Source: Bacteroidia bacterium (GTDB lineage Bacteria; Bacteroidota; Bacteroidia; B-17B0; Aurantibacillaceae). From it: a stretch of DNA of 64,000 bases. Position numbers and translations under genes: made by a program. The stretch lies in contig JAEUTO010000003.1 in the NCBI GenBank assembly GCA_016787785.1, positions 1 to 64,000 of the forward strand, given 5' to 3'. The notes under the pieces are model-generated. The model was not told the DNA's origin. It saw nothing but the letters and a program-made list of their open reading frames with translations, and did not search any database. Shown one piece after another: positions 9,835 through 35,844 of the stretch (positions are counted from its first letter, which is position 1; each line of letters begins with the position of its first letter).

Positions 9835-11811
9835 TTAATCAACCTTGATCATCTTTTGTTTTGAAACGATCTTCTTATTGCTGTCAATGCTTTCTATAAG
9901 ATAAATCCCCGCTCGTAATTCGCTGCAATTTAAATTTAGCGGTGTAACTCCAGTTCCAATATTTTGATTAATTGTTTTCACCAACTTACCAAAGGTGTCG
10001 TATACATTAATCGTTAATACAGATACAATCTTAGAATCTACTATCATTGCAAAATCTCCTTTAACAGGATTAGGATAAATTCCCGATAAAGCTATTTCAC
10101 CATCTTTTGCTCCTAACGGTAAAACATTTGTTCTTGTTTGTTGACCGTTATTTTCAAAAGAAGTAATGCGGTAATAATTTAAAGTTCCCGGCATTGTTGT
10201 TTTGTCATCAAATGTATATTTAGAAGGCAAATTGTTTGGAGTGATCTTTGCGATCTCCACAAAGTTTTCTGCATCAGATGATCTTTCAACAATATAGTTC
10301 TTAACTCCGGATTCAACTGCACTTTCCCAGGTTAATTTATTTATTCCTTCTAAACGCTCGCCATAAAAACTTTTAAAGTTTACAGGTAACACAGCACATG
10401 GTCCGCCAGGCGCAGCACAAGGCGATGTAAACCTATAAGCCGTATTTGTCATGTTCCATTGCGTTGGATAATTATGTGCCGTAGCATTTACAGGTGGTAT
10501 ATATGTGTTGCCATCAAAACTGGTCAAACCCATAATAGCTGCGCCATTATTCCAAGTAGCGCAAGTTTGTTTATTGGTAATATGTATTTCAATATTATTT
10601 GACGTTTCAAATAATTTAATTTGTCCGGTAAAGTCTTTAGATGCATTTGTATTACAAGGAGAAGAATACATTGGAACATTTAAAAAAGAGATTACAAAAC
10701 GCCTGTTGGGCGCCACACCAAGTGTAGTATAACGAATCGTTCCACCAACAGATGGGTCAATATCATGCCAAGGCCCTAAAACAGCATTTTGAGGAGTTGA
10801 TGTAGTATTATTCACCTTTGATGGAGCGGGCTGATCTATAACGTAACCTGTACCTATGCCACCAGCGGCCATTTGATTAAAATAAACATTGGGGAAACAA
10901 GGTACACCTGCAAAAACCAAAGCGCCATTAGATGCCGGGAAACCACCACCATACTGTGCGCCGGTAAAACAAAACGGGAAACCAAATAAAATTGAACTAC
11001 TGTAAAGAACATCATCTGTACTTGGCGCTAAAGTTCCTGCAAACACGTCAAAGCTATAAGGAACAACCGAAGGCACATAGGTGGAAAGATCACAGCTAGC
11101 CGCGGCACTGCCTGTACCTACTGATATTGTATTACTGAACGCGCAACTTGCGCCACAGCAAGCTCTTTTTCTAAAAAAGGTTTGGCCAATATAACTTGTA
11201 CTGGCTGAACCAGCGCCGGTTGCATTAGTTATATTTGTCCATGGTCCGGTAGCAGTTGGAGCAGATTGCCATTGCGATAAGATTCCACAACCAGCACTTG
11301 CGCCAGCAGCAGATAAGGTTACCGGTCCACCCGAAGCACAACCTGCGGTAGAAGATGAAATTGATATGACTCCAGGCGCAGGAGCTCCTGCACAAGGAGG
11401 CGCGCACGTTATAGTAGCTTGCCAGCCGGCACCAACAACTGATCCATCAGATGTAAAACGAAATGTCATGGTGTTGCCAGAAGAAACATAAGTAACCGGT
11501 CCTGCAATAATTCCAAACACGTTTGCTAGAAGGGGTGAGGCTGTGGTTGGTCCATCATATATATTTAGATCGTCGCAACAAGACTCGATATCAATATTAG
11601 CGAGCGTTATGCTCAAACATTGCCCGACAGGAGCTGTAAATGTTTTTGTGAAGTTTTCGCTATTTGCATAATTACCACCTACGTTACCGCTATCGTAAAA
11701 TAAAGACGAAGAAGGACAACCAATGGCAACATTTGTATTGTTCATTATGTAGGTTTGTGCCTTACTAAAGTAAAGTGAAAAAAGCGCAATAAGTAAATAA
11801 AAATTTTTCAT
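9835..11811 (-). CDS. T9SS-secreted protein with N-terminal CUB-like domain
   Basis: This is a 658-residue exported protein. A signal peptide (MKNFYLLIALFSLYFSKAQ) is followed by a CUB-like beta-sandwich (about 40-137, ESCCDDLNIYDGP with TMTFRFTSDGSVVGAGW), an Ig/SprB-like Cys-rich segment, a large middle region and a fibronectin-like stretch (LPVNFKSFYGE ... ITSFENNGQQ). The last 80 residues are a type A T9SS sorting domain (GIYPNPVKGDF ... LRAGIYLIE), so it is translocated by the Por machinery and probably surface-anchored or released. It follows the small secreted protein gene at 11820 by 8 bases. Adhesion or enzymatic role unknown. Confidence 0.8.
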   Translation of the reverse strand: MKNFYLLIALFSLYFSKAQTYIMNNTNVAIGCPSSSLFYDSGNVGGNYANSENFTKTFTAPVGQCLSITLANIDIESCCDDLNIYDGPTTASPLLANVFGIIAGPVTYVSSGNTMTFRFTSDGSVVGAGWQATITCAPPCAGAPAPGVISISSSTAGCASGGPVTLSAAGASAGCGILSQWQSAPTATGPWTNITNATGAGSASTSYIGQTFFRKRACCGASCAFSNTISVGTGSAAASCDLSTYVPSVVPYSFDVFAGTLAPSTDDVLYSSSILFGFPFCFTGAQYGGGFPASNGALVFAGVPCFPNVYFNQMAAGGIGTGYVIDQPAPSKVNNTTSTPQNAVLGPWHDIDPSVGGTIRYTTLGVAPNRRFVISFLNVPMYSSPCNTNASKDFTGQIKLFETSNNIEIHITNKQTCATWNNGAAIMGLTSFDGNTYIPPVNATAHNYPTQWNMTNTAYRFTSPCAAPGGPCAVLPVNFKSFYGERLEGINKLTWESAVESGVKNYIVERSSDAENFVEIAKITPNNLPSKYTFDDKTTMPGTLNYYRITSFENNGQQTRTNVLPLGAKDGEIALSGIYPNPVKGDFAMIVDSKIVSVLTINVYDTFGKLVKTINQNIGTGVTPLNLNCSELRAGIYLIESIDSNKKIVSKQKMIKVD

Positions 11812-16711: not shown

Positions 16712-17131
16712 TTATAATTTGTTTATATCTAAACGGGTTATTATAGCAGTAACTTTTGTTTTTAAAATCGCATATAATCCAACACCTGCGATCAAACCAA
16801 GGCTGTTCGAAAACAGGTCTCTTGAGTTAAAAGCGCGGTAAGGGATAAAATATTGAACTCCTTCAGTTGCTATCACTAATACAAAACCCAAAATTAACCA
16901 TATTAAAGGGCGAAATAAAAAAAAATTGGTAGAAGCTTCTCTGGAATTGAATAAGAGAATGGTCATCCATGGCAAAAAAAGTAAAATATGAATTAAATAA
17001 TCTAACCGAAGTTGAAATACGTAAGTGCCGTTTACTGCAGACTCTTTACCATTAATAGGTAAAACGGATAAAACAAATAATAATAGTATATAACTTATTG
17101 CAATGAATTTTAAGGAAAAAATAAACTTCAT
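16712..17131 (-). CDS. VanZ-like membrane protein
   Basis: A 139-residue protein with four predicted transmembrane helices (first ISYILLLFVLSVLPI, last FSNSLGLIAGVGLYAIL) and the VanZ-type motif YFIPYRAFNSRDLFSNSLG. VanZ-family proteins are widespread in cell-envelope loci; molecular function is not established outside teicoplanin resistance. It overlaps the deacetylase gene at 17128 by an ATGA-type junction and precedes the sugar transferase by one base, so it is part of the polysaccharide operon. Confidence 0.75.
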   Translation of the reverse strand: MKFIFSLKFIAISYILLLFVLSVLPINGKESAVNGTYVFQLRLDYLIHILLFLPWMTILLFNSREASTNFFLFRPLIWLILGFVLVIATEGVQYFIPYRAFNSRDLFSNSLGLIAGVGLYAILKTKVTAIITRLDINKL

Positions 17132-17907
17132 TTTATCAATATTCTTTTTATTTGATTTTTTAAATTTTGTGCGAAAAATTCTTTATACCAAAGTAGTTTA
17201 TCGTCGGTCCATCTTTGTGGATGAAAAGTCATCATTACATTTCCGGGAAAATCTTTTTTTTCAAGATCGCTAATTATGTCAAAAGTAGAATGGTAAGAAC
17301 GACTTAAAAAATCCGGATTACTGCACGCGTTAGCATCCATTGCTTTGTCACGAACACTAACTTTAGCCCCATCCCAACGTCTGCCAGTATCTGTAAGATA
17401 AAATGTTTTGTTAAAATCAACATCGAAATAAGGCTCTGCAATAAGGCCAAGTTTCTTATAATCATATTTTTTCCAGATATCGCGGTTATCAAATTTTGAT
17501 AAAGGGCTGCCGTGCATACAAATTGTTGTTATCGGCACGATCTTCCTGAACATTTCCAGGTTCTTTACAAACTCATCATAAGCGTTATCTACGTGCCCTC
17601 TCGCAGTATCCATAGTTTCATAATGGTAGCCTATTTCATGACCCAAATTTGCCATTTCCAAAATAACTTTTTCGTCATAACTTTGCGGTATGGTTCTAAA
17701 ATAATAGGTTCCTGCAATTCCCATTTGATGTTGTATTTTTGCAAACTCTAAAGAGTTTTCCTTACGGGCATCAACATCATGACGAAGACAGATAAACTTT
17801 TTATCCTGATCGTTTTGTAAATGAAAAACGTTGTAGGGCAAAAACCCAAAACCAAAATCTTTTAGTGCTACTAATAATTTTTTATAGCTCTTAACGGTAA
17901 AATCCAC
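17128..17907 (-). CDS. Polysaccharide deacetylase-like protein (NodB fold)
   Basis: The 259-residue protein shows NodB-type motifs: CLRHDVDA (metal-binding Asp pair, residues about 43-47), HEIGYHYET (motif 2 His) and a late MTFHPQRW segment. The family removes N-acetyl or other acyl groups from sugars through a metal centre. There is no signal peptide, so it would act in the cytoplasm on lipid-linked or nucleotide-linked glycans. It is the first of two deacetylase-like genes in the cluster (the other is 28232-29212). Confidence 0.75.
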   Translation of the reverse strand: MDFTVKSYKKLLVALKDFGFGFLPYNVFHLQNDQDKKFICLRHDVDARKENSLEFAKIQHQMGIAGTYYFRTIPQSYDEKVILEMANLGHEIGYHYETMDTARGHVDNAYDEFVKNLEMFRKIVPITTICMHGSPLSKFDNRDIWKKYDYKKLGLIAEPYFDVDFNKTFYLTDTGRRWDGAKVSVRDKAMDANACSNPDFLSRSYHSTFDIISDLEKKDFPGNVMMTFHPQRWTDDKLLWYKEFFAQNLKNQIKRILIK

Positions 17908-17926: not shown

Positions 17927-19012
17927 TTATTTAAACTGATCCTGATGATCCTTATTTTTACGCATGGTGCTTTCACTGGAGGGATAATTTTCGACAAACC
18001 AAGTCAAAAAAGCTGTAACATTTATTTTCTCGCTTAAAAATAAATTTCTCTTGTCGTTCATTTCCTTTTTTAGATCAGGCTTTTTCAAAAGTTCTGTAAT
18101 ATGAGAAAACATTTTTTCAAATTCAACGGGTTGATATGAAAAACACAACCCGTATTTTTTCTCTAATTCGTTTGGCACTGAAAGTCCGCCGGCAAAAGTA
18201 TTGCACTTTAGAGCCATAGTACCCAAAATTGCTGCTTCGGTTGTCATGGTTTGGCTATCGCCAATAAACAGTTTCGCATAATACATTAGCGAATGTATTT
18301 TCTCCGGCGCTACCGGTAATCTATATTCTTCAAATTCAGGTTCAATCTCTTTCTCTGAAGTTATGAATATCTTACCAAATGGTTTTAAAAGTTCAATCAA
18401 TCTTTTTTTCTGATCAAAAGAAATACCTTTTTGACCAACATCGTGATGGCCTTTGAATGCAACGAATCTCAATATAAAAAAACTTGAGTTGTGGTCTAAT
18501 CCCAATTCTTCTAAGACCTTAATATTAGGTTTAAAATAATTGGGATGTAAATATGCAAGTTCGTGTATTCCGGCATAATACAAACTCTTTTTATTTTTTC
18601 GTTTGATCGAATCAGGCGTTAAAATTACATTCGCAAACGGGTGACCATACTTAACGAATAAAGGTTCTACACTGTCATCATCATCGTCAAGAACGATCGA
18701 TCTCATTTTTGATAACCTTGAAACGTGAGGTAGTGTAATAGAAGTTCCAATTCCAATTTCGATCTTATTTCTTCTTACCAGCTTTAAAACCTTTAGGTTA
18801 TATTTTATCTGATTAATTGCTTTACCAATTATAGAATCGGTTTTACTACCAATTTCAATAAAATCAAGTCCTTCTGCCTTCAACAATTTTTTTGCAACAG
18901 GTAGATCTTTAACAGTTATAAAAATTTCATGCCCTTTAGCTTTTAAACCGTTTATTGTATGCTTAAGTAAATGAACGTGTGCAGGGTGGCCTATATCAAA
19001 AAGTAATTTCAT
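17927..19012 (-). CDS. DUF354-family (GT-B-like) protein
   Basis: The 361-residue protein begins MKLLFDIGHPAHVHLLKHTI, the signature of DUF354, a family with a GT-B fold related to UDP-GlcNAc 2-epimerases and MurG-type transferases. A nucleotide-binding half is suggested by FIGDSQTMTTEAAILGT (about residues 250-266). It overlaps the FemAB-like gene at 19009 by ATGA. A glycosyltransferase role is likely but unproven. Confidence 0.75.
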   Translation of the reverse strand: MKLLFDIGHPAHVHLLKHTINGLKAKGHEIFITVKDLPVAKKLLKAEGLDFIEIGSKTDSIIGKAINQIKYNLKVLKLVRRNKIEIGIGTSITLPHVSRLSKMRSIVLDDDDDSVEPLFVKYGHPFANVILTPDSIKRKNKKSLYYAGIHELAYLHPNYFKPNIKVLEELGLDHNSSFFILRFVAFKGHHDVGQKGISFDQKKRLIELLKPFGKIFITSEKEIEPEFEEYRLPVAPEKIHSLMYYAKLFIGDSQTMTTEAAILGTMALKCNTFAGGLSVPNELEKKYGLCFSYQPVEFEKMFSHITELLKKPDLKKEMNDKRNLFLSEKINVTAFLTWFVENYPSSESTMRKNKDHQDQFK

Positions 19013-20013
19013 TTTTTAACTTTTTTAAGTATCCCTAAGCCAAACTTACCAAGCTTATATAAGTGAGGGCTGCTTATTTTAATAAAACGGCCATGTTCTA
19101 CCATCACGCCTCCAAACTCGGCTTTATAGTTGCGCACACCATATTCTTCGCCGGGTTGGCCCGCACCCATAAGATCAAGAATTTTTAGATTATTTTTTAT
19201 TCCAAATTCCATTGCTGCAATAATAGAAAGATGTGTTGGGAATATTTTTTTATGGTAATCTCTAAGCCCACAATAATACAATGTATAAATACCCTTATTG
19301 GGGTAATAAAAACAGAACGAACCGCCAATTATATTTTGGTTATGTTTTACAACAAATACTTTTCCAATTGATGATCTATACAATTTCTCGAAATAGTCAA
19401 GCGCAGGTAGCGGTAGCTTTACTCTTGTATCGTATAAATCCTTTAAGATCTTATACAGAGCAGCAACTTCGCCAACAGATGTGGCTTCTTCCACCTTTGC
19501 ACCTTCTTCATACGAAATACGGATCTCTCTTTTACGATTATATTTCATTTGTCCCAAAAGCTCTTCAAGCGTTTTATTTTGCAGATCTACCTGAAAATTT
19601 AAATAAGGCACAAAGTTCCAATGTTGACCTAAGAACGAAGATTGAAAAGATGAGTAATCATTAAAATTTCGTGTTTCAATATAAATTACTTCTTTCTTTA
19701 GTTTACTTAAAATTAATTTTAAAAGTTCGGTTAATGCTTCAGGGTCACTCTCAACTACCGGGCCACCGTAGATGATAGCCCTTCTTGAAAAATATCCTTT
19801 CAGCCCTTTTTCTTTTTGAATAGTTACAACACATAATGCTTTTAAACTATTGTCTTTTTCAACAGCAAAAATTTTTGCCGCTTGCAAAGGGATGGAATTA
19901 AAAAAATCGAAAAATTCGGGTGATTGAAAAGGAGTTGAAAATTGGTTATCCTTTAGTATAGACCGCCATTTTTCATCACTTATCTGATTTTTTTCTGAGA
20001 TACAGGTATACAA
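19009..20013 (-). CDS. FemAB-like / GNAT-fold aminoacyltransferase
   Basis: The 334-residue protein has two GNAT-like halves, with MKYNRKREIRISYEEGAKVE (about 158-177) and the C-terminal GGSFCFYYPNKGIYTLYYCG block characteristic of the FemAB/PEP-CTERM-associated family. Relatives add amino acids from aminoacyl-tRNA, or other acyl groups, to peptidoglycan or glycans. No membrane segment is seen. It lies between DUF354 and the AsnB fusion, so it may attach an amino acid or acyl group to the glycan. The acyl donor is unknown. Confidence 0.75.
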   Translation of the reverse strand: MYTCISEKNQISDEKWRSILKDNQFSTPFQSPEFFDFFNSIPLQAAKIFAVEKDNSLKALCVVTIQKEKGLKGYFSRRAIIYGGPVVESDPEALTELLKLILSKLKKEVIYIETRNFNDYSSFQSSFLGQHWNFVPYLNFQVDLQNKTLEELLGQMKYNRKREIRISYEEGAKVEEATSVGEVAALYKILKDLYDTRVKLPLPALDYFEKLYRSSIGKVFVVKHNQNIIGGSFCFYYPNKGIYTLYYCGLRDYHKKIFPTHLSIIAAMEFGIKNNLKILDLMGAGQPGEEYGVRNYKAEFGGVMVEHGRFIKISSPHLYKLGKFGLGILKKVKK

Positions 20014-20024
20014 AATGTATTGAT

Positions 20025-23000
20025 TTATTTTTTATTCCTCATTTCAGCCTGAAATATTGATTGAGGCTTGTGCAGAAATAAAAATTTGAGAAATGGTTTT
20101 GAAAAACTAAGCATTCGGCTAAATAAAAAATCGTACGAAGGATAATCTTTATAATTGTGGTTCTTTGCAACCATTATTTTTTCAAATTCTTTTGGAGTAA
20201 TATCTAATTTTTTTAAAACATATTCAAGTGTTCTTTCCAGCTCTTCTTTTTTAAAAGGTGATTCATTTAATTTATTTAATGCATCCTCTCTCGTCATTTC
20301 GCCACTCAATGTTAGAGCAGAATAGGTGATCTTACGTTTATCTATACCAAATTTAACCGGAAGCCAATACGATATGGCAAACTTAGTAAATAAATTTTCG
20401 TGATGGTGACCTCCGTAGTATTCCCAATTATAGTTCTTGATCAAAAAGTCCTGCGCATTGGTTTTGTTATAATCTAAATAATAATACGGGTATATACTTT
20501 TAATTTTTTTGAAAAAGCCGTAGTAAACTAAGTTGAAAAAGGTATAGTTGGGAAAAGTCTTTAACTTAACTTTTCCAAATTTTTTATGAATAGCTGTTAA
20601 CTGTTTGCCATCACCATAGGTCCATTCTTTTGGTTGCGAACCTTCTGTTCTAAAATCATTACCTCTTAAAACATATTTGATTCCTTCTTTAGCAGCCATC
20701 TTATATAAAATAGATTTGATGGCCAGATCGGTTGGCATATCAATCCATGGTAACCCCGAATACATGTACGATTTTAAAAGATCTTTTACTTCCTCGTAAT
20801 TTATAACATGCGTTCGCAAATCGATATCAAGTTTAGTGGTTAATTTTTGTATGTTTGAAACGGCAATTTCACTACCCCACCCATTATCTAAATAAACTGC
20901 CAACGGACGCAAATTATATTGTTTTGCTAAATGAAGTAAATATGAACTATCGGTGCCACCGCTCACGCCTATTATACAATCGTATCTTTTATTCTTACCG
21001 CCGTCTTTTATTAATTGCACCATACGTGCCCAATCTTCTTTACCTTTATCCCCTCTCGGATATGCAGAGGTTAGCGTTTGAAATAACTTAGCATAGTTTG
21101 AAATACCAGCTTCATCAAATGTTATTCCCGGCACTGTCTTATCCCACACACCAAGTTTACAAACCTGAGTTTCATTTTTTCCTTCCTTCTCAGCTACTTT
21201 GGGATCAATAAACTCTCTAAACCACAATTCTAAATGCACCCATTTCCAAATATCCTTTGATATGTTCGTTTTTCGTTCTAAATGATCCTGAAACAATTTT
21301 CGAGCAACCACCGGATCAATAATGTTCCTATTTTTAAACGAATCGCTTTTGAGTATCTCTTCAATTATTTTTTTCCACGAATCTTTTCTAAACCATTCGT
21401 CTTCTGGTGTTCCAAATCCCATTTTATCTTTCCTCACTCTTATCTTTTCTGGTAATACCCCTTTCATGGCATCTCTCAGGATAAATTTCGTCATCCCTTT
21501 TTTTATCACCAATGAACTTTTAGAAGCCAACGTTTTTTCAACTAAACGATAATCTAAAAAAGGCGCTCTTGATTCTAAGGAAAAAAACATGGAGTTCCTA
21601 TCATCCCATTTAAGTAGATGTTCTAATTTATATTCAAAGTGATCCAGAAGTGCTTCCTTTAAACTTCCCGAACCATACAAGTTACCTGCAATTGAATTGT
21701 TTTTTTGGTATTGACGGATAAATTCAGGATTCAAGAATTCTTTTTCGCTTACCCGTGTACTGGTCCTGAATTTTTTAGGGAGCATAAAATAAACGAATGT
21801 TTTAATACCAAAAAGACTACGGTGTGTTTTTAGGTAACTAATAACTTCGCTACATAATGTAATTAATTTGCCATGCATTAAAAGATCCTTAAAATAGAAC
21901 CCGAAAAAATAATGATAGCCGGCAAGCGATTCATCGGCGCCCTGCCCGCTCAAGAGAACACCAATTTTTCCCTTTGCTAACTCCATAACTTTATACTCTG
22001 CATAGGCTGAAGTAGAAGGAATTGGTTCCGCCTGAACTTTCACAAAATCAAAAACATCTTTCTGAAGATCTTCCGATTCGGGCATCGTAAAAAACATATT
22101 TTTTACAATAGGTTTAAATTCATTTATATACTCACTCTCATCTCCAATCTGACCTTTATTATAAACTGCTGAGAATGTGTTAAGCTCTTTATTTTTATTT
22201 TCGTTTAAAATTACAGAAACAATACTTGAAGAATCCAATCCTCCGCTTAAACAAACACCAACAGGTACATCGCTTCGCAAACGCAAATTTACCGACGAAC
22301 TAAAAAACTCCCTGAATTCTTCAGAGCTTTTAAATCCTTCTCTTTTAGAAACTTCCTTCTTAAGATCATACCATCGCGAGATGGTTGTTTTATTGTTCTT
22401 TATACTAATTTTGTGCCCATGCTGTAATTTTTTAACCTCTTCAAAAAACGTATCTTCGGTTTGATCTGTTCTGTTAAAAACCAAATAATCAAAAATACTT
22501 TGTTTATTGGCCTGCGGTTTTTTATCAAGAAGAGAAAGTAAAGGCGGTATCTCCGAACAAAATGCAAATTGGTTTTTAGTTTGTAAATAATAAAAAGGTT
22601 TTACACCAAAACGATCCCTAGCCGCAAATAAATTTTTGCTTTGCTTGTCGTAAATTGCAAACGCCCACATGCCGTTAAACTTATGCAAACACTCTTCGCC
22701 CCAGTAAATATAAGCATTCAATAAAACTTCCGAATCGGTTTGAGTGTTAAACGCAACCCCTAAGCTTCTTAATTCTTCTCGTAATTCAATGTAATTATAA
22801 ATTTCGCCATTAAACACCAAAACATATCTTCCATCAGAAGATTGCATTGGCTGGTGACCAGCCGACGAAAGATCAATAATACTTAAACGTACAAAACCAA
22901 AACCAAAACATTTATCAAGAAAAACACCTTCATCATCCGGACCACGGTGCTTCATAAGCGCCATCATTTTTCGGATCGAATTTTCCTCTACATTTTGCTC

Positions 23001-23033
23001 ATTAAAATTTACTATTCCCGAAATACCACACAT
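20025..23033 (-). CDS. Asparagine synthetase fused to N-acetyl-sugar amidotransferase (WbpG/PseA-like)
   Basis: This 1002-residue protein joins two enzymes. Residues 1-610 are a full glutamine-hydrolysing AsnB: Cys2 nucleophile (MCGISGIV), RGPDDEG, a PP-loop SGGLDSS (263-269) and SGQGADESLAGY. Residues about 622-1000 are an N-acetyl-sugar amidotransferase of the WbpG/PseA type with its own PP-loop SGGTDSS (691-697), GITFDEAG and LRGNDFRTEGSQPKEW. In stand-alone WbpG-type proteins two CxxC pairs bracket this start; here they read CKLG (625-628) and SNYA (645-648), so three of four Cys are gone. Stand-alone family members need a separate ammonia source. The fused Ntn glutaminase could supply ammonia to convert an acetamido group to an acetamidino group. 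Confidence 0.85.
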   Translation of the reverse strand: MCGISGIVNFNEQNVEENSIRKMMALMKHRGPDDEGVFLDKCFGFGFVRLSIIDLSSAGHQPMQSSDGRYVLVFNGEIYNYIELREELRSLGVAFNTQTDSEVLLNAYIYWGEECLHKFNGMWAFAIYDKQSKNLFAARDRFGVKPFYYLQTKNQFAFCSEIPPLLSLLDKKPQANKQSIFDYLVFNRTDQTEDTFFEEVKKLQHGHKISIKNNKTTISRWYDLKKEVSKREGFKSSEEFREFFSSSVNLRLRSDVPVGVCLSGGLDSSSIVSVILNENKNKELNTFSAVYNKGQIGDESEYINEFKPIVKNMFFTMPESEDLQKDVFDFVKVQAEPIPSTSAYAEYKVMELAKGKIGVLLSGQGADESLAGYHYFFGFYFKDLLMHGKLITLCSEVISYLKTHRSLFGIKTFVYFMLPKKFRTSTRVSEKEFLNPEFIRQYQKNNSIAGNLYGSGSLKEALLDHFEYKLEHLLKWDDRNSMFFSLESRAPFLDYRLVEKTLASKSSLVIKKGMTKFILRDAMKGVLPEKIRVRKDKMGFGTPEDEWFRKDSWKKIIEEILKSDSFKNRNIIDPVVARKLFQDHLERKTNISKDIWKWVHLELWFREFIDPKVAEKEGKNETQVCKLGVWDKTVPGITFDEAGISNYAKLFQTLTSAYPRGDKGKEDWARMVQLIKDGGKNKRYDCIIGVSGGTDSSYLLHLAKQYNLRPLAVYLDNGWGSEIAVSNIQKLTTKLDIDLRTHVINYEEVKDLLKSYMYSGLPWIDMPTDLAIKSILYKMAAKEGIKYVLRGNDFRTEGSQPKEWTYGDGKQLTAIHKKFGKVKLKTFPNYTFFNLVYYGFFKKIKSIYPYYYLDYNKTNAQDFLIKNYNWEYYGGHHHENLFTKFAISYWLPVKFGIDKRKITYSALTLSGEMTREDALNKLNESPFKKEELERTLEYVLKKLDITPKEFEKIMVAKNHNYKDYPSYDFLFSRMLSFSKPFLKFLFLHKPQSIFQAEMRNKK

Positions 23034-23054: not shown

Positions 23055-24224
23055 TTATTTTTTTAATACTTTCTCGTACAATTCTTCTAATTCCTTTTCT
23101 TTTGCCGGAAGATCAAGATTTTTTACTGCATAGGCTTGGCCAGCTGCCCCAATGGCTCGCCTTAATTCTTTGCCTTGAATTAAACTAATAATTGCCAAGG
23201 CCAATTCATCTTCGTTATGCTCCTTTACTAAAAGGCCTGTATTTCCAGACTCTATGATATAAGGAATACCCGCGTGATACGTAGATATAACAGGTAAACC
23301 TGCCGACATAGCCTCAATGATCGTACCAGGAATACCTTCTTTGTCGCCATTTGGAGCTATTACACTCGGGTGAACAAAAACATCCGCTTTTCTATATTCA
23401 TCCATCATTTGCTCTGAAGCATATTTAACAGCGCCAACAAATGTTACAAATTCTTTAATTTCGTTATCAAAGACAAATTTCTTTAGTTCTGCGTCAAGCT
23501 CACCACTGCCCGCAATTCGAAGTTCAAAATTTACAATTCCTTTCTCGATAATTTTTTTGATGCTCTTTAGTAAAAATATATGTCCCTTTTGAGGTACTAA
23601 AGTTGATAGATTTAAAAGTATAACTTTTTTATTTTCTGAATCTATTTTATCGTAATAAAATTTCTTGCAATCAGTGCCATAATAATGAACAATGATTCTG
23701 TTTTCTTTGCATCCGGCGGCAACCAGATCTTTTTCCATATCCGGACTCATGGCAAAAACAGCTGAACAATATCTAAAAACTCGCTCTTTTAAAAATCTTT
23801 TGCCATAACCTAACAAAAAAGAAGGAAAGGAAGAGCAGTCGTAACCATAAAATGATACAACAAACGGAACCGGCAATTTTTTTGTAAGTGGATAATATAT
23901 GCCACAGTCGGTGCCATAATGAAAGTGGCAGATACTTATTTCGTTTTCCTTAATAAAATCAAGGATCTCATCTACATGTTTATTTGATAATGTTTTAATG
24001 GTTTTAAAACGAAGCTTGTCAAAAAAAGATTCGCTTAAACTAAGATCTAAATACTTATATTTATTAATATCGAAATCGGCAAAAGTTTCGCTCTTGTTCT
24101 TTGAAGAACTTTTTCTGAACGCAATTAGGGGCTCAAAGATTTGATGATTGGTAATTTGATTTAATATAAATGAAGCTTTTAGCTGATCTTTTTTTCTCAC
24201 AAAATGTAAAACCCTTTTTTTCAT
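23055..24224 (-). CDS. Glycosyltransferase family 4
   Basis: From ATG 24224 the protein has 389 residues. It has the GT-B layout with the nucleotide-sugar half carrying LLNLSTLVPQKGH, RIAGSGELDAE and EGIPGTIIEAMSAGLPVI, including the EX7E-type motif of retaining GT4 enzymes. An upstream in-frame start at 24257 would overlap the preceding gene by 36 bases; ATG 24224 forms a classic ATGA junction with its stop, so it is preferred. It transfers a sugar to the growing repeat unit; donor unknown. Confidence 0.85.
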   Translation of the reverse strand: MKKRVLHFVRKKDQLKASFILNQITNHQIFEPLIAFRKSSSKNKSETFADFDINKYKYLDLSLSESFFDKLRFKTIKTLSNKHVDEILDFIKENEISICHFHYGTDCGIYYPLTKKLPVPFVVSFYGYDCSSFPSFLLGYGKRFLKERVFRYCSAVFAMSPDMEKDLVAAGCKENRIIVHYYGTDCKKFYYDKIDSENKKVILLNLSTLVPQKGHIFLLKSIKKIIEKGIVNFELRIAGSGELDAELKKFVFDNEIKEFVTFVGAVKYASEQMMDEYRKADVFVHPSVIAPNGDKEGIPGTIIEAMSAGLPVISTYHAGIPYIIESGNTGLLVKEHNEDELALAIISLIQGKELRRAIGAAGQAYAVKNLDLPAKEKELEELYEKVLKK

Positions 24225-26038
24225 TTTCTTTGTAATACTTTTTGTTCTGAACACCAAATTAAAATACTGAAAAAACTATTAAAAGCCTGATTGTATTCGC
24301 TTTTATTATATTTTATTAAATGTTCTTCGATATCTTTGGGTCTGCATATCTTTTCATCTAATTCGATAGCATTTCCTATCTCCTTAAAAAAAATCGCACT
24401 CCATGAACGACTGTCAAAATCGGGCGGGGCTTTTTTGTTGTTTTTCCGGCGCTTATAAAAATAATAAGGAATTAAAGCTTTCCTATGATCTAAATTATAA
24501 TTTGGCGGATAACCTCTATCCACATTAATCTCTCCAATTGCCGGATAAAATTTCTTGATTATTAGAGATTGTAATTTTCTGTTGCCTCTGCGTAATAAAA
24601 CTGAATTTTTGAACGCGTTCTTATAAACATTTAAATGAGTTGTCGAAAAAATATATTTCAAAAGATCAAGGTCGTAAAACGGACTTAAATTCTCGGTATA
24701 GTATCTTTCAAGGTGCATTTGGTTACCATAAAAATGCGGAAAACCAACGGTGATAAGATCCTTCATATAATACATCCACGCAAACTTCTCGTGTTTGTAC
24801 TTTTGGATCAGGCTTCTTCTCTTTTCTATATGCTCAGCTAACTCATTAACGATTTCGGGAGTTAAAAAAATTTCCGGGTTCATAAATTTTACACCAGGGT
24901 TTTCGGAAATAAATTTAGGAATATCCAGCGCCTTCTGATCATACATTACATTGTAATAATTTTCGTTTATGTAATCTGTTTTTTGATGAACCGGAGCAAA
25001 AACTTCACCACCGATCAGGCCTGTAATAATATATCGCGAACTTTGCGCGATTTTTTTTGCAGCATAAACATAATTGGCCCGTTCGAAAATAGAAATGCCA
25101 TCTGATAAATTAACAACCGCCCTTGCACTTTCTGTATAGTCGCCCTCAAACTCAGCATCTAAATTAATTGGTGTATAGTTGACATTTAATTTTTTTGACA
25201 CGTTTAACGGAACGGTAGTGTTTTCACCGCCGCTCTTGCCAAAGCTATAGGTTTTAAATTTAATTTTATTCTTAAGTAAAACGGCCACATTTGCCCGCCC
25301 ATCAAAACCACCTGTTAGCGATGCTGAAATATGTTCTGAAACACCAGCGCGCTGAAGTACCGAATGCTCAAACAAGTTTAAAAATTTTGCCTCGTCAAAT
25401 TTCTCTAAATTCCCCGTTACCGAGAAAAGTTCTGTAACTTCAAAATAAGAATTAACATTTAAAGCCGAATTGGTGTAATTTAAGATACCTCCTTGTTCAA
25501 GCATGTAAACATCTTTTATAAAAGTACAATTGCTTATCGGATAGTTAAAAATGATCTTCTCCAGAACTGTGCAATAGTTAATTTGAAAATCGACTTCTTT
25601 AAAGTCGTTTAAATTTGTTGAAATATAGAAATACTCTCTATTTTTTTTATAGTAAATGTATTTTAACCCCAGTTGATCTTTTAAAATAAAAAAAGTGGCA
25701 TTTGATTTAGAATAAACCAGAATTATGAAATTTCCTTTCAATTTATCGCTAAATCCTCGGCCCTCTTTTAAATAAAGATCTAAAATTTCGTCGGCATTTA
25801 TTGATCGTATCTGTTTTGAAACTGCGAGTTGATAGTATGTTTTTCCAGAAACAAAAATTACATATTGTTCGCTCTCAAAAAAATCATGCTTTTCCCCTTT
25901 ATACCTAATTCCATTTATTGTAATATTTTTGTCGGTATACGTTATATCTTCATGAAGGTCTGGGTTATAAAATTTCCTGGAAGTTGGCTTAACCAAAAAA
26001 TCTGAAGACTGATCATTTGAAAGATTTATTTCAAACAT
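24221..26038 (-). CDS. Degenerate asparagine-synthetase-like protein
   Basis: The 605-residue protein has the overall two-domain layout of class B asparagine synthetases, but both active sites are altered. The N-terminus is MFEINLS instead of MCGI, so no Cys nucleophile for glutamine hydrolysis exists, and the PP-loop is LTGGFDGRANVAV instead of SGGLDSS. The synthetase-like domain (about 225-590) is otherwise recognisable (IITGLIGGEVFAP, ENLSPFYDLDLL). Such AsnB-like proteins are common in glycan and peptide modification clusters, where they may use another amine donor or act as adenylating/amidating enzymes. It sits next to a complete AsnB fusion. Confidence 0.75.
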   Translation of the reverse strand: MFEINLSNDQSSDFLVKPTSRKFYNPDLHEDITYTDKNITINGIRYKGEKHDFFESEQYVIFVSGKTYYQLAVSKQIRSINADEILDLYLKEGRGFSDKLKGNFIILVYSKSNATFFILKDQLGLKYIYYKKNREYFYISTNLNDFKEVDFQINYCTVLEKIIFNYPISNCTFIKDVYMLEQGGILNYTNSALNVNSYFEVTELFSVTGNLEKFDEAKFLNLFEHSVLQRAGVSEHISASLTGGFDGRANVAVLLKNKIKFKTYSFGKSGGENTTVPLNVSKKLNVNYTPINLDAEFEGDYTESARAVVNLSDGISIFERANYVYAAKKIAQSSRYIITGLIGGEVFAPVHQKTDYINENYYNVMYDQKALDIPKFISENPGVKFMNPEIFLTPEIVNELAEHIEKRRSLIQKYKHEKFAWMYYMKDLITVGFPHFYGNQMHLERYYTENLSPFYDLDLLKYIFSTTHLNVYKNAFKNSVLLRRGNRKLQSLIIKKFYPAIGEINVDRGYPPNYNLDHRKALIPYYFYKRRKNNKKAPPDFDSRSWSAIFFKEIGNAIELDEKICRPKDIEEHLIKYNKSEYNQAFNSFFSILIWCSEQKVLQRK

Positions 26039-32338: not shown

Positions 32339-32830
32339 TTACTTTGCTAATTTTTGTTTGCTACGCATATAAGCAATTAATTCTTCTTTGTTTTTAAAAC
32401 CTCTAAGTTTTTTTGCTGGATTACCGGCATAAATGGAGTAGTCATCTACATCTTTTGTAACAACAGCCCCTGCACCAATTACAGAATATTCTCCAATAGT
32501 AACGCCGCCTACAATAGTTGCATTTGTTCCTATAGATACGCCTCTTTTAACAAGGGTTTTAAGATATTCTACTTTTGTGCCAACAATTGGATAAAGATCG
32601 TTTGTAAACATGGCACCATGCCCTATAAATACATCATCTTCCAGTGTAACCGAATCGCATAAAAAAGAGTGGCTCTCAATTATGCAATTCTTTCCAATTG
32701 CTGTATTTCTTGTAATCTCTACAAATGGGCCAACAAAACTGTTATCCCCAATAATACAGCCAAAAATATTTACCTGATCTTTGTTATAGATCCGTACATT
32801 TTTTCCAAGTTGTACATCACTGTCTATCAT
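32339..32830 (-). CDS. Left-handed beta-helix N-acyltransferase (WbpD/QdtC-like)
   Basis: The 163-residue protein consists of hexapeptide repeats (IIGDNSFVGPFVEI, IGKNCIIESHSF, VFIGHGAMFTND, TIVGGVTIGEY, VIGAGAVVTKDV), which form a trimeric left-handed beta-helix acyltransferase. The pattern with GHGAMFTND and the YAGNPAKKLRGF ending matches sugar N-acetyltransferases of the WbpD/QdtC/FdtC group, which acylate amino groups installed by an aminotransferase such as the one encoded directly upstream (32827). Four-base overlap. Confidence 0.82.
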   Translation of the reverse strand: MIDSDVQLGKNVRIYNKDQVNIFGCIIGDNSFVGPFVEITRNTAIGKNCIIESHSFLCDSVTLEDDVFIGHGAMFTNDLYPIVGTKVEYLKTLVKRGVSIGTNATIVGGVTIGEYSVIGAGAVVTKDVDDYSIYAGNPAKKLRGFKNKEELIAYMRSKQKLAK

Positions 32831-33924
32831 AACATAAATTTATTTGTAACAGAAATTACTTCTTCCTGCAATTCATTTTGAAGTTCTGGATAAAAAGTTA
32901 AAGCAATAACCTTGTCGCTTAAACTCTCTGCAATTGGAAAATCACCTTTTTTGTATCCTAAAAAACGGGTTGCTTCCTGCATATGTAAAGGCATTAAGTA
33001 ATAAATATTTGTTTGAATCTTTCTTTCATCCATATATTCTATAAATTTTTTTCTGTCGCTCTTAAACTTAGAAACGAACACATGATAATTTGAATAAATG
33101 CCTTCTTCTATAACCTGGTGCTCAAAAAGATCAGTTCTTAATTGGCTGATGTATTTTTTTGCGATCAGGTTGCGTTTATGATTCATTTCATCAAGATGCG
33201 TTAACTTCACTCTTAAGATCGCCGCCTGTAATTCATCTAACCTGCTATTTATGCCATTTATCTTTATATGGTTGTAATCTGTCATTCCATACATGCGTAA
33301 AAGTCGCAGTTTTTCATTTATTTCAGCATTTTTGGTTACTATCATTCCGCCATCACCAATCGCTCCAAGATTTTTTGTTGGATAAAAACTAAACACGCCA
33401 ATATCCCCCATTGATCCGGATTGATGCTCTCCAAGTTTACTTCCGTGTGACTGAGAAGCATCTTCAATAATTGGCATATCTTTTCCGACAATTTCACGTA
33501 GTTTAAAAATATCAACAACGTTTCCAAAAAGATGTACCGGCATTACCGCTTTTGTTTTTTGTGTTATTGCAGCTTTGATCTTGTCAAGATCAATAAGGAA
33601 AGTATCTTCTTTTACATCAACAAATACAGGCGTTGCCCCTGAATCAATAATTGCAGATACTGTTGGTATTGCGGTAAAAGGGGTTGTAATTACTTCATCA
33701 CCTTTTCCAATTCCCAACGCCATTAACGAAAGGGTTAAGCCATCGGTTGCGTTTGCAACGCCAACCGAAAAATCGACACCAATATATTTTGCGAATTCTT
33801 TTTCAAAAGCATTTACCTCAGTCGCATTTGTATATCTGCCCGAAACAAGGACACGCTGCATTGCTTCATCAATCTCTTTTTTGTACAACTCATACTGTGG
33901 TACCAGGTCACATCTCCAGATCAT
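32827..33924 (-). CDS. DegT/DnrJ/EryC1-family sugar aminotransferase (QdtB/FdtB-like)
   Basis: The 365-residue PLP enzyme has SVGVANATDGLTLSLMALGI, GDEVITTPFTAIPTV, IIEDASQSHGS and the PLP-binding Lys in FYPTKNLGAIGDGG. The subfamily resembles QdtB/FdtB-type 3-aminotransferases of nucleotide-linked 3-keto-6-deoxy sugars. With the acyltransferase at 32339, the SDR at 33921, the dehydratase at 34861 and the nucleotidyltransferase at 35851 it forms a likely amino-sugar pathway. The nucleotide carrier is not certain. Confidence 0.85.
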   Translation of the reverse strand: MIWRCDLVPQYELYKKEIDEAMQRVLVSGRYTNATEVNAFEKEFAKYIGVDFSVGVANATDGLTLSLMALGIGKGDEVITTPFTAIPTVSAIIDSGATPVFVDVKEDTFLIDLDKIKAAITQKTKAVMPVHLFGNVVDIFKLREIVGKDMPIIEDASQSHGSKLGEHQSGSMGDIGVFSFYPTKNLGAIGDGGMIVTKNAEINEKLRLLRMYGMTDYNHIKINGINSRLDELQAAILRVKLTHLDEMNHKRNLIAKKYISQLRTDLFEHQVIEEGIYSNYHVFVSKFKSDRKKFIEYMDERKIQTNIYYLMPLHMQEATRFLGYKKGDFPIAESLSDKVIALTFYPELQNELQEEVISVTNKFML

Positions 33925-34868
33925 TTTTTTATTTTATAGGATTTAATTGTTTCTTTTAAAGCGGAAGAAAGATCTGTTATAGAGTATTCCCCATATTCAG
34001 ATCGTATCAAGTTATCGTTTAATGGTTTGCCCCCAAAATCTATGCTTTTAATGTGCTCGGGAATATCCTTAACTACGCAACTTCCGTTTTTACATACTGT
34101 AATTATTTCTTCAGCTAAATTTTTAATTGTAACAGAAGTGCCATTTATATTATATGCATTAAAGCCGTCTTTAATACCTTTATTAATAATATTTTCTGTT
34201 ATAACACTAAGATCTTTCGCGTATAAGACCGACCTTTTCCTTTGCTCTCCATAAACTTCAATTACTTTACCTTCTATTGCATCTTTTATCATTGTGGCAA
34301 TAAGCCCTAGATCATCTCCTTCGAACTTTTGATTAAGGCCAAAACAATTTGGGATCCTTAAAGAAGTAACTGCAAACCCTTTTGCTTTTGAAAAAAATCG
34401 GTAATGATTTTCTGCGGTAACTTTATGTATGCCCTGAATGTCGATAGGAACAAAGGCTGTAGTTTCAAGAATTTCTTGCTCTTTAACCGCACCGTACTGC
34501 CCTGAAGAGCCAAAGAAAATTATTCTATTTTTTTTTGTAAAATATTCTATAGCTTTTAAATGCGATTGCACGTTAAGTTTTAGATCGTAAGCCGGGTCTT
34601 TAATTGCGGCCAGGTGTGATGTCCAGGCCATACAATCGATTATTATTTCATGTTCAGAAATTATTGAAGCTATTTCCGGAATTTCTTCAATAGGATTTTT
34701 TATTACCTGTAAATTTTTATGCGCGCTCAAATTCGTCAGGCTTCCACCCGATCTATCCATTAAACCATCAATTACCGTTACCTGATAGTTCTTTTCTAAA
34801 AGCAAGGCAACAATATTGCTTCCAATAAAACCTGCCCCTCCTAATACTAATATTTTCTTATCAGACAT
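33921..34868 (-). CDS. Extended SDR (NAD-dependent epimerase/dehydratase) with altered active-site Tyr
   Basis: The 315-residue protein has the Rossmann signature LVLGGAGFIGSN and a Ser-containing FFGSSGQYGA stretch. The YxxxK motif, expected before VTAE, reads QGIHK: the catalytic Tyr is replaced by Gln, while the Lys is kept. It may be an inactive or non-redox homologue, or use another acid/base. It overlaps both neighbours (4 bases with the aminotransferase, 8 with the LegB-like gene), so it is tightly coupled to that pathway. Confidence 0.8.
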   Translation of the reverse strand: MSDKKILVLGGAGFIGSNIVALLLEKNYQVTVIDGLMDRSGGSLTNLSAHKNLQVIKNPIEEIPEIASIISEHEIIIDCMAWTSHLAAIKDPAYDLKLNVQSHLKAIEYFTKKNRIIFFGSSGQYGAVKEQEILETTAFVPIDIQGIHKVTAENHYRFFSKAKGFAVTSLRIPNCFGLNQKFEGDDLGLIATMIKDAIEGKVIEVYGEQRKRSVLYAKDLSVITENIINKGIKDGFNAYNINGTSVTIKNLAEEIITVCKNGSCVVKDIPEHIKSIDFGGKPLNDNLIRSEYGEYSITDLSSALKETIKSYKIKK

Positions 34869-35844
34869 TATAGATATTCTTGTATGCTTTATTGTTATCC
34901 GCGTGCTTAAACCAAGCTATAGTTTCGCTCAATCCTTTTTCCAACGTAAATTCTGGTTTCCAGTTTGTTTTGGAGGTTAATAATGTGTTATCTCCTAACA
35001 ACCTTTCTACTTCACTATTGGAAGGACGTAAGCGAATTTCATCCGTTTCGACTTTTGCTTTTGGATTAATTAAGGCAATTATTTTTTTCACAAGATCGCC
35101 CATTGAAATTTCGTTGCCGGTTGCAATATTTACATCCATACCAATAAGTTCATCGCACTGAGCTATTTTAAAAAATCCATTCACTGTATCTTTTACGTAT
35201 AGTAAATCTCGTGTTGGCGTTAATGAACCGAGTTTTATTATTTCATTTCCACTTACCAATTGCGAAATAATTGTAGGAATAATTGCTCTTGCTGATTGGC
35301 GGGGACCGTAAGTATTAAATGGACGAACAATAACTGCAGGCAAATTAAAACTCCTTACAAAAGAATCCGTTAAAGCATCGGCAGCGATTTTTGTTGCTGA
35401 ATAAGGTGACTGTCCCTGACGAGGATGTTTTTCGTTGATAGGAACGTATTGTGCAGTCCCGTAAACTTCAGAGGTGGATGTAACGATCACTTTTTTTGTT
35501 CCCAGTTCACGTGCTGCCTGTAACACGTTTAAAGTTCCCCTAATGTTTGTATCTACATATGATTCAGGAGAGTGATAACTATAGGGAATGGCAATTAGCG
35601 CGGCCAAATGATAAACGATATCAATATTTTCCATTGCTTTTTTAACACCATAAGGTTCGCGAATATCGCCGGTAAAAACTTCTATCATTTTTAATTTTTC
35701 TGCGGGCAATGTATCTAACCATCCCCACGAATTAAAAGAGTTATACAAAACAAAAGCTTTTACTTTAAAACCCTCATCTAGTAATTTCTCAACCAAATGA
35801 CTTCCTATAAATCCTTCAGCGCCGGTAACAAGTACATTTTTCAT
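34861..35844 (-). CDS. NAD-dependent sugar-nucleotide 4,6-dehydratase (LegB-like)
   Basis: The 327-residue extended SDR shows VTGAEGFIGSHLVEKL, VTSTSEVYG, the active YSATK and IVRPFNTYGPRQSARAII. The combination with YNSFNSWGWLDTLP and IPYSYHSPESYVDTN is that of the LegB group, 4,6-dehydratases known from legionaminic acid pathways. No neuB-type synthase is present here, so a full legionaminic pathway is unlikely; a 4-keto-6-deoxy intermediate for the downstream aminotransferase is more plausible. Confidence 0.82.
   Translation of the reverse strand: MKNVLVTGAEGFIGSHLVEKLLDEGFKVKAFVLYNSFNSWGWLDTLPAEKLKMIEVFTGDIREPYGVKKAMENIDIVYHLAALIAIPYSYHSPESYVDTNIRGTLNVLQAARELGTKKVIVTSTSEVYGTAQYVPINEKHPRQGQSPYSATKIAADALTDSFVRSFNLPAVIVRPFNTYGPRQSARAIIPTIISQLVSGNEIIKLGSLTPTRDLLYVKDTVNGFFKIAQCDELIGMDVNIATGNEISMGDLVKKIIALINPKAKVETDEIRLRPSNSEVERLLGDNTLLTSKTNWKPEFTLEKGLSETIAWFKHADNNKAYKNIYNV

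Follow-up and report, generated by a model that had tools for sequence, protein, structure and literature searches.

One gene in a polysaccharide locus of a Bacteroidia bacterium appears to join an asparagine synthetase to a sugar amidotransferase. Is this a genuine enzyme, and from where would its second half draw ammonia? The gene lies in the 64,000-nucleotide stretch of DNA analysed here (the window), which is part of contig C7 of genome G000; other genomes carry G-numbers, and the stretches fetched from genomes carry L-numbers. A sequence-only reading had described a polypeptide of 1002 residues at 20025-23033, and ORF calling and translation bore this out. The minus strand of 20025..23033 holds a single ORF of 1002 codons that starts with ATG, and the plus strand is rich in stops. 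Across the join between the two halves, only the coding frame is open.

Domain organization of the fusion protein

We found that residues 1-610 form a complete asparagine synthetase (AsnB) and residues 625-1002 (20028..21161, minus strand, as for all features of this gene) a complete N-acetyl sugar amidotransferase (NASAT) of the WbuX/WbpG type. Both halves scored above curated cut-offs: TIGR01536 (asparagine synthase) gave 460.3 bits over residues 2-540 against 267.1, and TIGR03573 (WbuX) 239.8 bits over residues 623-954 against 203.2. TIGR03108, the WbpS-type/XrtA amidotransferase family, gave 378.8 against 816.9, which places the protein outside that family. The AsnB half consists of a class II (Ntn) glutaminase domain (about residues 1-225; 22359..23033; PF13537 and PF13522) and a synthetase domain (about residues 226-610; 21204..22358; PF00733, 222.2 bits). 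The motifs named by the sequence-only reading were found where it had put them, namely Cys2, the AsnB PP-loop SGGLDSS at residues 263-269 (22227-22247) and SGGTDSS at residues 691-697 (20943-20963), which is the NASAT PP-loop SGGxDS. C2, R49, N75, E77 and D100, which we take to be the glutaminase residues that matter, are all present.

The two domains are separated by 10-14 residues. In an alignment with separate homologues (A1; L067, L068, L070 and L071), the AsnB proteins stop at the position of residue 610 and the NASAT proteins begin near 621, and the linker was set at residues 611-624 (21162..21203). An AlphaFold2 model of the full chain, built from the nine rows of the same alignment, reached a pLDDT of 53.9 (below 50 at residues 611-623) and a pTM of 0.39, too poor to reveal a tunnel or how the domains are arranged.

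The synthetase half is conserved as well. We compared 25 positions in active-site motifs among AsnB clade 1 (11 rows, one of them truncated), clade 2 (five) and the other NASAT-adjacent AsnBs (six), and they differ only at 266, 364 and 366. The AsnB synthetase of the fused, adjacent and four-gene forms is therefore probably active, to judge from these motifs. The GEG motif of Escherichia coli AsnB, whose glutamate has a role in that enzyme, reads GQG in the window protein. All 11 clade 1 rows and all six of the other NASAT-adjacent AsnBs have Gln at this position, all five clade 2 rows have His, and Gln is also common there among the remaining AsnBs; our literature search found no open-licence paper on asparagine synthetase Glu-348. 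The substitution is a weak hint that the AsnB half may make a product other than asparagine.

Two other kinds of AsnB were noticed. Seven rows (L091:9251, L096:2179, L098:15280, L100:5454, L103:11465, L104:4385 and L105:10397), from stretches with a HisH/HisF-linked CxxC NASAT, carry Cys instead of Glu in the NGE motif of the glutaminase, together with GTGGDE, and the NASAT-adjacent AsnBs differ from them. The window itself encodes at 24221-26038 (minus strand) an AsnB-like protein that lacks the catalytic N-terminal Cys and whose PP-loop is replaced by TGGFDGR; it has homologues in L075 and L083.

Related fusions and their origins

The sequence-only reading had called the fusion natural and had suggested a search for the same architecture in protein databases. 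A search of other genomes found it in G034, G030 and, built from other subfamilies, G798. The first two are at least two further fusions of the window type among 87 genomes of the family: the G034 protein has 1004 aa, with 59% identity over residues 1-1002, and the G030 protein 879 aa, with 62% identity over residues 121-1000 and a contig end inside the gene. The linkers of the three proteins differ in both sequence and length.

The G798 fusion (L200:7015-10092, minus strand) belongs to another family of the class and encodes 1025 aa. It scored 412.9 bits with TIGR01536 and 259.4 bits with TIGR03573, has all four knuckle cysteines and showed no HisH or HisF match in the 16 kb around it. It came from a class sample of 395 genomes, in which several long NASAT frames appeared among the matches listed; one of the 12 that were fetched carries AsnB, and the other 11 have different N-terminal parts (the long frames of G523 and G483 lie outside the 12). 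Since the best two, up to nine or up to five candidates per genome were scored, depending on the search, and the match lists were cut, the fusions counted here are a minimum.

NASATs also follow N-terminal parts of about 320-450 aa in L081:6505-8604(+), L083:7384-9483(-), L201:4871-7270(-), L202:6735-9125(-), L203, L209 and L210. The part in L081 is a GT4 glycosyltransferase by Pfam, those of L083, L201 and L202 appear similar on inspection, and the frames of L203, L209 and L210 were judged from length only. Seven proteins of 608-681 aa join an Ntn glutaminase to a divergent NASAT with CxxC knuckles and thus have one glutaminase and one PP-loop domain (L074:4944-6989(-), L082:3514-5340(-), L084:5326-7152(-), L087:11282-13291(+), L196:6043-7869(-), L197:5941-7959(-) and L198:5337-7169(+)). 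Their glutaminase was assigned by similarity to L087, with L074 and L087 scanned by Pfam, and those of L082, L084 and L087 share their stretch with a zinc-less NASAT.

In phylogenetic trees, the AsnB half of G798 fell in a set of five rows (support 100), the other four being AsnB genes that have a CxxC NASAT within 0-4 bp. The NASAT half joined L079, which is AsnB-adjacent, and L184 in a set of three (support 99). The AsnB of L079 stands elsewhere in the AsnB tree, so the two halves of G798 also have different kin. By this kinship the G798 fusion, built from different AsnB and NASAT subfamilies, clearly originated apart from the window type, which gives at least two origins of fusion.

Among the three window-type fusions the halves tell different histories. 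The window NASAT half groups with the HisH/HisF-linked L071 (90/84) and L087 (89/89), and the G034 and G030 NASAT halves form a sister pair (100/100). A single fused clade was rejected for the NASAT half (AU p 0.029) and for the AsnB half (AU p 0.034), in tests that each compare two trees and with p values only moderately below 0.05. Pairwise identities gave a mosaic pattern: the AsnB halves are 67-70% identical between the window and G030 and 55-58% between G034 and G030, and the NASAT halves 71% between G034 and G030 and 55-57% between the window and these two. Taken with the modest p values, this means either separate fusions or a later exchange of halves among the three.

Separate-gene relatives

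Relatives of the two halves also occur as separate genes. L067 has a HisH-like ORF, HisF, NASAT and AsnB, each as its own gene, and L068, L069, L070 and L071 have the order AsnB, HisH, HisF, NASAT, again all separate; L069, with the layout of L068, was excluded from trees and counts. In G083 (L077) the AsnB and NASAT genes overlap by one base, with no HisH or HisF in the stretch. The AsnB clade of the window is present in G058 and G008 (L075, L076) with no NASAT in the stretch, and G459, G276, G148 and G274 (L087-L090) hold close NASAT relatives together with HisH/HisF and no close AsnB. These layouts indicate that AsnB and NASAT, as enzymes of related loci, can exist apart.

The zinc knuckle was probably lost before fusion

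The sequence-only reading had described the zinc cysteines of the NASAT half as eroded in company with the fusion. Its description of the knuckles was right. Where most of the family has CxxC...CxxC, residues 625-648 (21090..21161) have C625-K-L-G628 and S645-N-Y-A648, so three of the four cysteines of the tetracysteine zinc motif are missing and C625 is kept. The supposed link with fusion did not hold, since the loss of the second and third cysteines is fixed in a NASAT clade of 17 members that includes HisH/HisF-linked genes. In an alignment of 84 of the 98 tree rows (the 14 omitted being seven Ntn-fused and seven divergent CxxC proteins), the second knuckle position is Gly and the third Ser in 17/17 clade members, and the fourth is Ala in ten and Cys in four. 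The other 67 rows have Cys at the second position in 63 cases and at the third in 65. The clade had a support of 99 in one tree and 95/98 in another, and its sister is the CxxC protein of L067.

The first knuckle cysteine is invariant (84/84) and may have another role. Zinc-less knuckles occur with HisH/HisF in L087-L090, L068, L070 and L071, and we therefore rejected the idea that zinc loss followed fusion or the loss of HisH/HisF. The loss is an old trait of the 17-member clade; most likely it preceded fusion, and it is unconnected with where the ammonia comes from. In a crystal structure of a Legionella NASAT the zinc lies at the edge of the pocket, and the authors describe the tetracysteine motif as a characteristic family feature (PMC10607449). 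The existence of the zinc-less clade suggests that the zinc site is dispensable in some NASAT-like enzymes.

HisH/HisF and the source of ammonia

As the sequence-only reading had implied, no separate HisH/HisF partner was seen with the fusion: among the matches listed for G000, five of HisF type and four of HisH type, none lies on contig C7. A HisH/HisF pair of this genome is at C15:183522-184822, outside the window contig. To place this in context, we found 95 NASAT genes in 35 genomes picked for holding relatives, and 87 of them were used in a Fisher test after seven Ntn-fused genes and one 194-aa fragment were dropped. HisH/HisF is the usual partner but not a universal one, being absent within 4 kb of 52 of the 87. 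An AsnB was fused or lay within 100 bp in 12 of these 52, compared with two of the 35 NASATs that have at least one of HisH and HisF (p 0.038, kinship ignored); in both of the latter it is HisF alone within 4 kb. Distances are bounded by the fetched stretches and by contig ends (G030, L082).

Ten of the 14 zinc-less NASATs in the 35 genomes have no HisH/HisF nearby. Of these ten, four are fused to an AsnB or adjacent to one. Another three, in L084-L086, stand alone, although L084 also has, 858 bp away, an AsnB from a different clade. The last three, in L081-L083, have a long extension at the N-terminus, which Pfam identifies as GT4 in L081; that of L082 is cut by a contig end. Thus six of the ten have no fused or adjacent AsnB, and the absence of HisH/HisF does not require AsnB. 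A rule that AsnB always replaces HisH/HisF was likewise rejected, because both are present in L067-L071, where AsnB need not feed the NASAT. In the open-licence literature we found no paper that traces the delivery of ammonia to sugar amidotransferases.

The fusion lies in a polysaccharide cluster

The genes around the fusion encode Wzc- and Wza-type proteins, a sugar-phosphate transferase, glycosyltransferases, a flippase, an aminotransferase and acyltransferases. These calls come from family scans, mostly below curated cut-offs, and from reading the sequences; the LegB-type NAD-dependent 4,6-dehydratase (34861..35844, minus strand; TIGR04180, 490 bits) is above its cut-off of 475. The gene content fits a cluster for a polysaccharide that contains amino sugars. 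Together with an aminotransferase (32827-33924; best TIGR03588, 220 bits, below the cut-off of 423.5) and a hexapeptide acyltransferase (32339-32830), the dehydratase could supply an N-acetylated amino sugar. A uronate dehydrogenase, which would point to a uronamide, was found nowhere in the window, and the two PF03721 (UDP-sugar dehydrogenase) matches of the genome are on C10. Next to the cluster, a protein at 9835-11811 (minus strand) carries a secretion-system C-terminal sorting domain (PF18962) and a CUB domain.

Three minus-strand genes follow the fusion. A FemAB-like acyltransferase adjoins it (19009..20013; PF02388, 41.1 bits), with homologues within 6 kb of four of the 17 clade NASATs. 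A deacetylase-like protein (17128..17907), named from its sequence, matched no Pfam or NCBIfam family and has homologues within 6 kb of six of the 17. Between them lies a DUF354 gene (17927..19012; PF04007, 58 bits). DUF354 genes were found within 6 kb of all 17 zinc-less clade members, compared with eight of 77 CxxC NASATs and none of four others, and six of those eight are located in loci of zinc-less clade members.

A proposed shared glutaminase and its alternatives

We see an even chance that the fusion is a bifunctional sugar-amidating enzyme of polysaccharide assembly, which would carry out two amidations with the AsnB glutaminase in place of HisH/HisF. The AsnB half would hydrolyse glutamine and use the ammonia to convert an adenylated carboxylate to an amide; the carboxylate would most likely belong to a sugar or a sugar substituent, as in WbpS. 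The NASAT half would use ATP to activate an N-acetyl group and convert it to an acetamidino group. In the four-gene relatives a separate HisH/HisF pair accompanies the NASAT. The locus of the fused form has none, and there the AsnB glutaminase, tethered by a short linker, would most likely feed both synthetase sites. The shared ammonia, the substrates and the acetamidino chemistry are what we infer here. A more tentative proposal is that the fusion represents a new type of glycan amidotransferase that evolved repeatedly. A single class II glutaminase would supply both ATP-pyrophosphatase synthetases of the chain and take over from HisH/HisF, the enzyme would place a carboxamide as well as an acetamidino group on one saccharide, and its NASAT half would act without the zinc knuckle regarded as defining the family.

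An artefact of sequencing or assembly that joined two neighbouring genes, which the sequence-only reading had named as a way for its claim to fail, is barely conceivable. In its favour, separate overlapping genes exist in G083, but two more genomes have the same architecture with different linkers, and G798 has a fusion of other subfamilies; the G034 and G030 proteins exclude such an error for practical purposes. Separate homologous genes, also named there as grounds for doubt, do exist (the overlapping pair of L077; L067-L071). Given the fused forms in other genomes, they look like the unfused state and do not prove an error. The same reading had left the choice between a self-sufficient amidine synthase and dual amidation. 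We consider it improbable that AsnB is purely an ammonia donor with an idle synthetase domain. A shared glutaminase is plausible, and the seven Ntn-NASAT fusions (with a Pfam glutaminase in the two scanned) have just such a layout of a glutaminase and one PP-loop domain. However, the synthetase motifs of AsnB are as conserved as the glutaminase ones, suggesting an active synthetase, and the same AsnB clade occurs without NASAT in L075 and L076, which favours dual amidation.

Dual amidation might also proceed without any sharing of ammonia. Each half would then act on its own group of a shared glycan, and they would be fused merely for co-expression or proximity, with the NASAT taking ammonia from HisH/HisF elsewhere or from the free pool. 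The HisH/HisF pair on C15 might act in trans, zinc-less NASATs with neither partner exist (L085, L086), and NASAT also occurs joined to a GT4 glycosyltransferase, a fusion that does not serve to supply ammonia. Nevertheless, AsnB coupling is commoner where HisH/HisF is missing, and a separate AsnB-NASAT fusion of other subfamilies (G798) again has no HisH/HisF match in its 16 kb. We regard this alternative as rather unlikely.

Comparison with known systems

AsnB-NASAT is a real domain architecture that arose more than once from families that are themselves known, and it is undescribed in the open-licence literature searched. The abstract openings covered there described no such fusion, and the available part of a paper on archaeal fusion proteins (PMC11237513) held nothing on it. 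According to the one structural study found, little is known of how sugar amidotransferases work (PMC10607449). A natural one-chain form that evolved more than once offers a tractable enzyme in which to follow the ammonia source and to see whether two amidations are coupled.

The AsnB half has the domain order, catalytic Cys and PP-loop of E. coli asparagine synthetase B (PDB 1CT9), and differs from it in having GQG for GEG and an extra NASAT domain. In the Tannerella forsythia O-glycan cluster, as in the window, an AsnB (Tanf_01265) is found among glycan genes, and its authors proposed that it helps in acetamidino formation; unlike the window fusion it has 605 aa, too short for a NASAT domain (PMC6120980). 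A Sphingomonas cluster holds an exosortase-associated amidotransferase alongside WbuX, HisF and HisH genes (PMC11340318). WbpS of Porphyromonas gingivalis (PGN_1234) is an AsnB-like amidotransferase that forms a uronamide in a surface-glycan pathway with a putative acyltransferase (VimA) and a deacetylase (VimE), as the fusion is adjoined by FemAB-like and deacetylase-like genes. It is a separate gene, whereas the window protein is a fusion, and the two are likened from their descriptions; the same source assigns WbpS of Pseudomonas aeruginosa to TIGR03108 (PMC7468200). With the Legionella enzyme LpNASAT (PDB 8WEX), WbpG of P. aeruginosa O5 and WbuX of E. coli O145, as PMC10607449 describes them, the window protein shares the NASAT family by profile score, the SGGxDS PP-loop and a polysaccharide locus. 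It differs from them in lacking three of the four zinc cysteines, in having no HisH/HisF in its locus and in being fused to AsnB.
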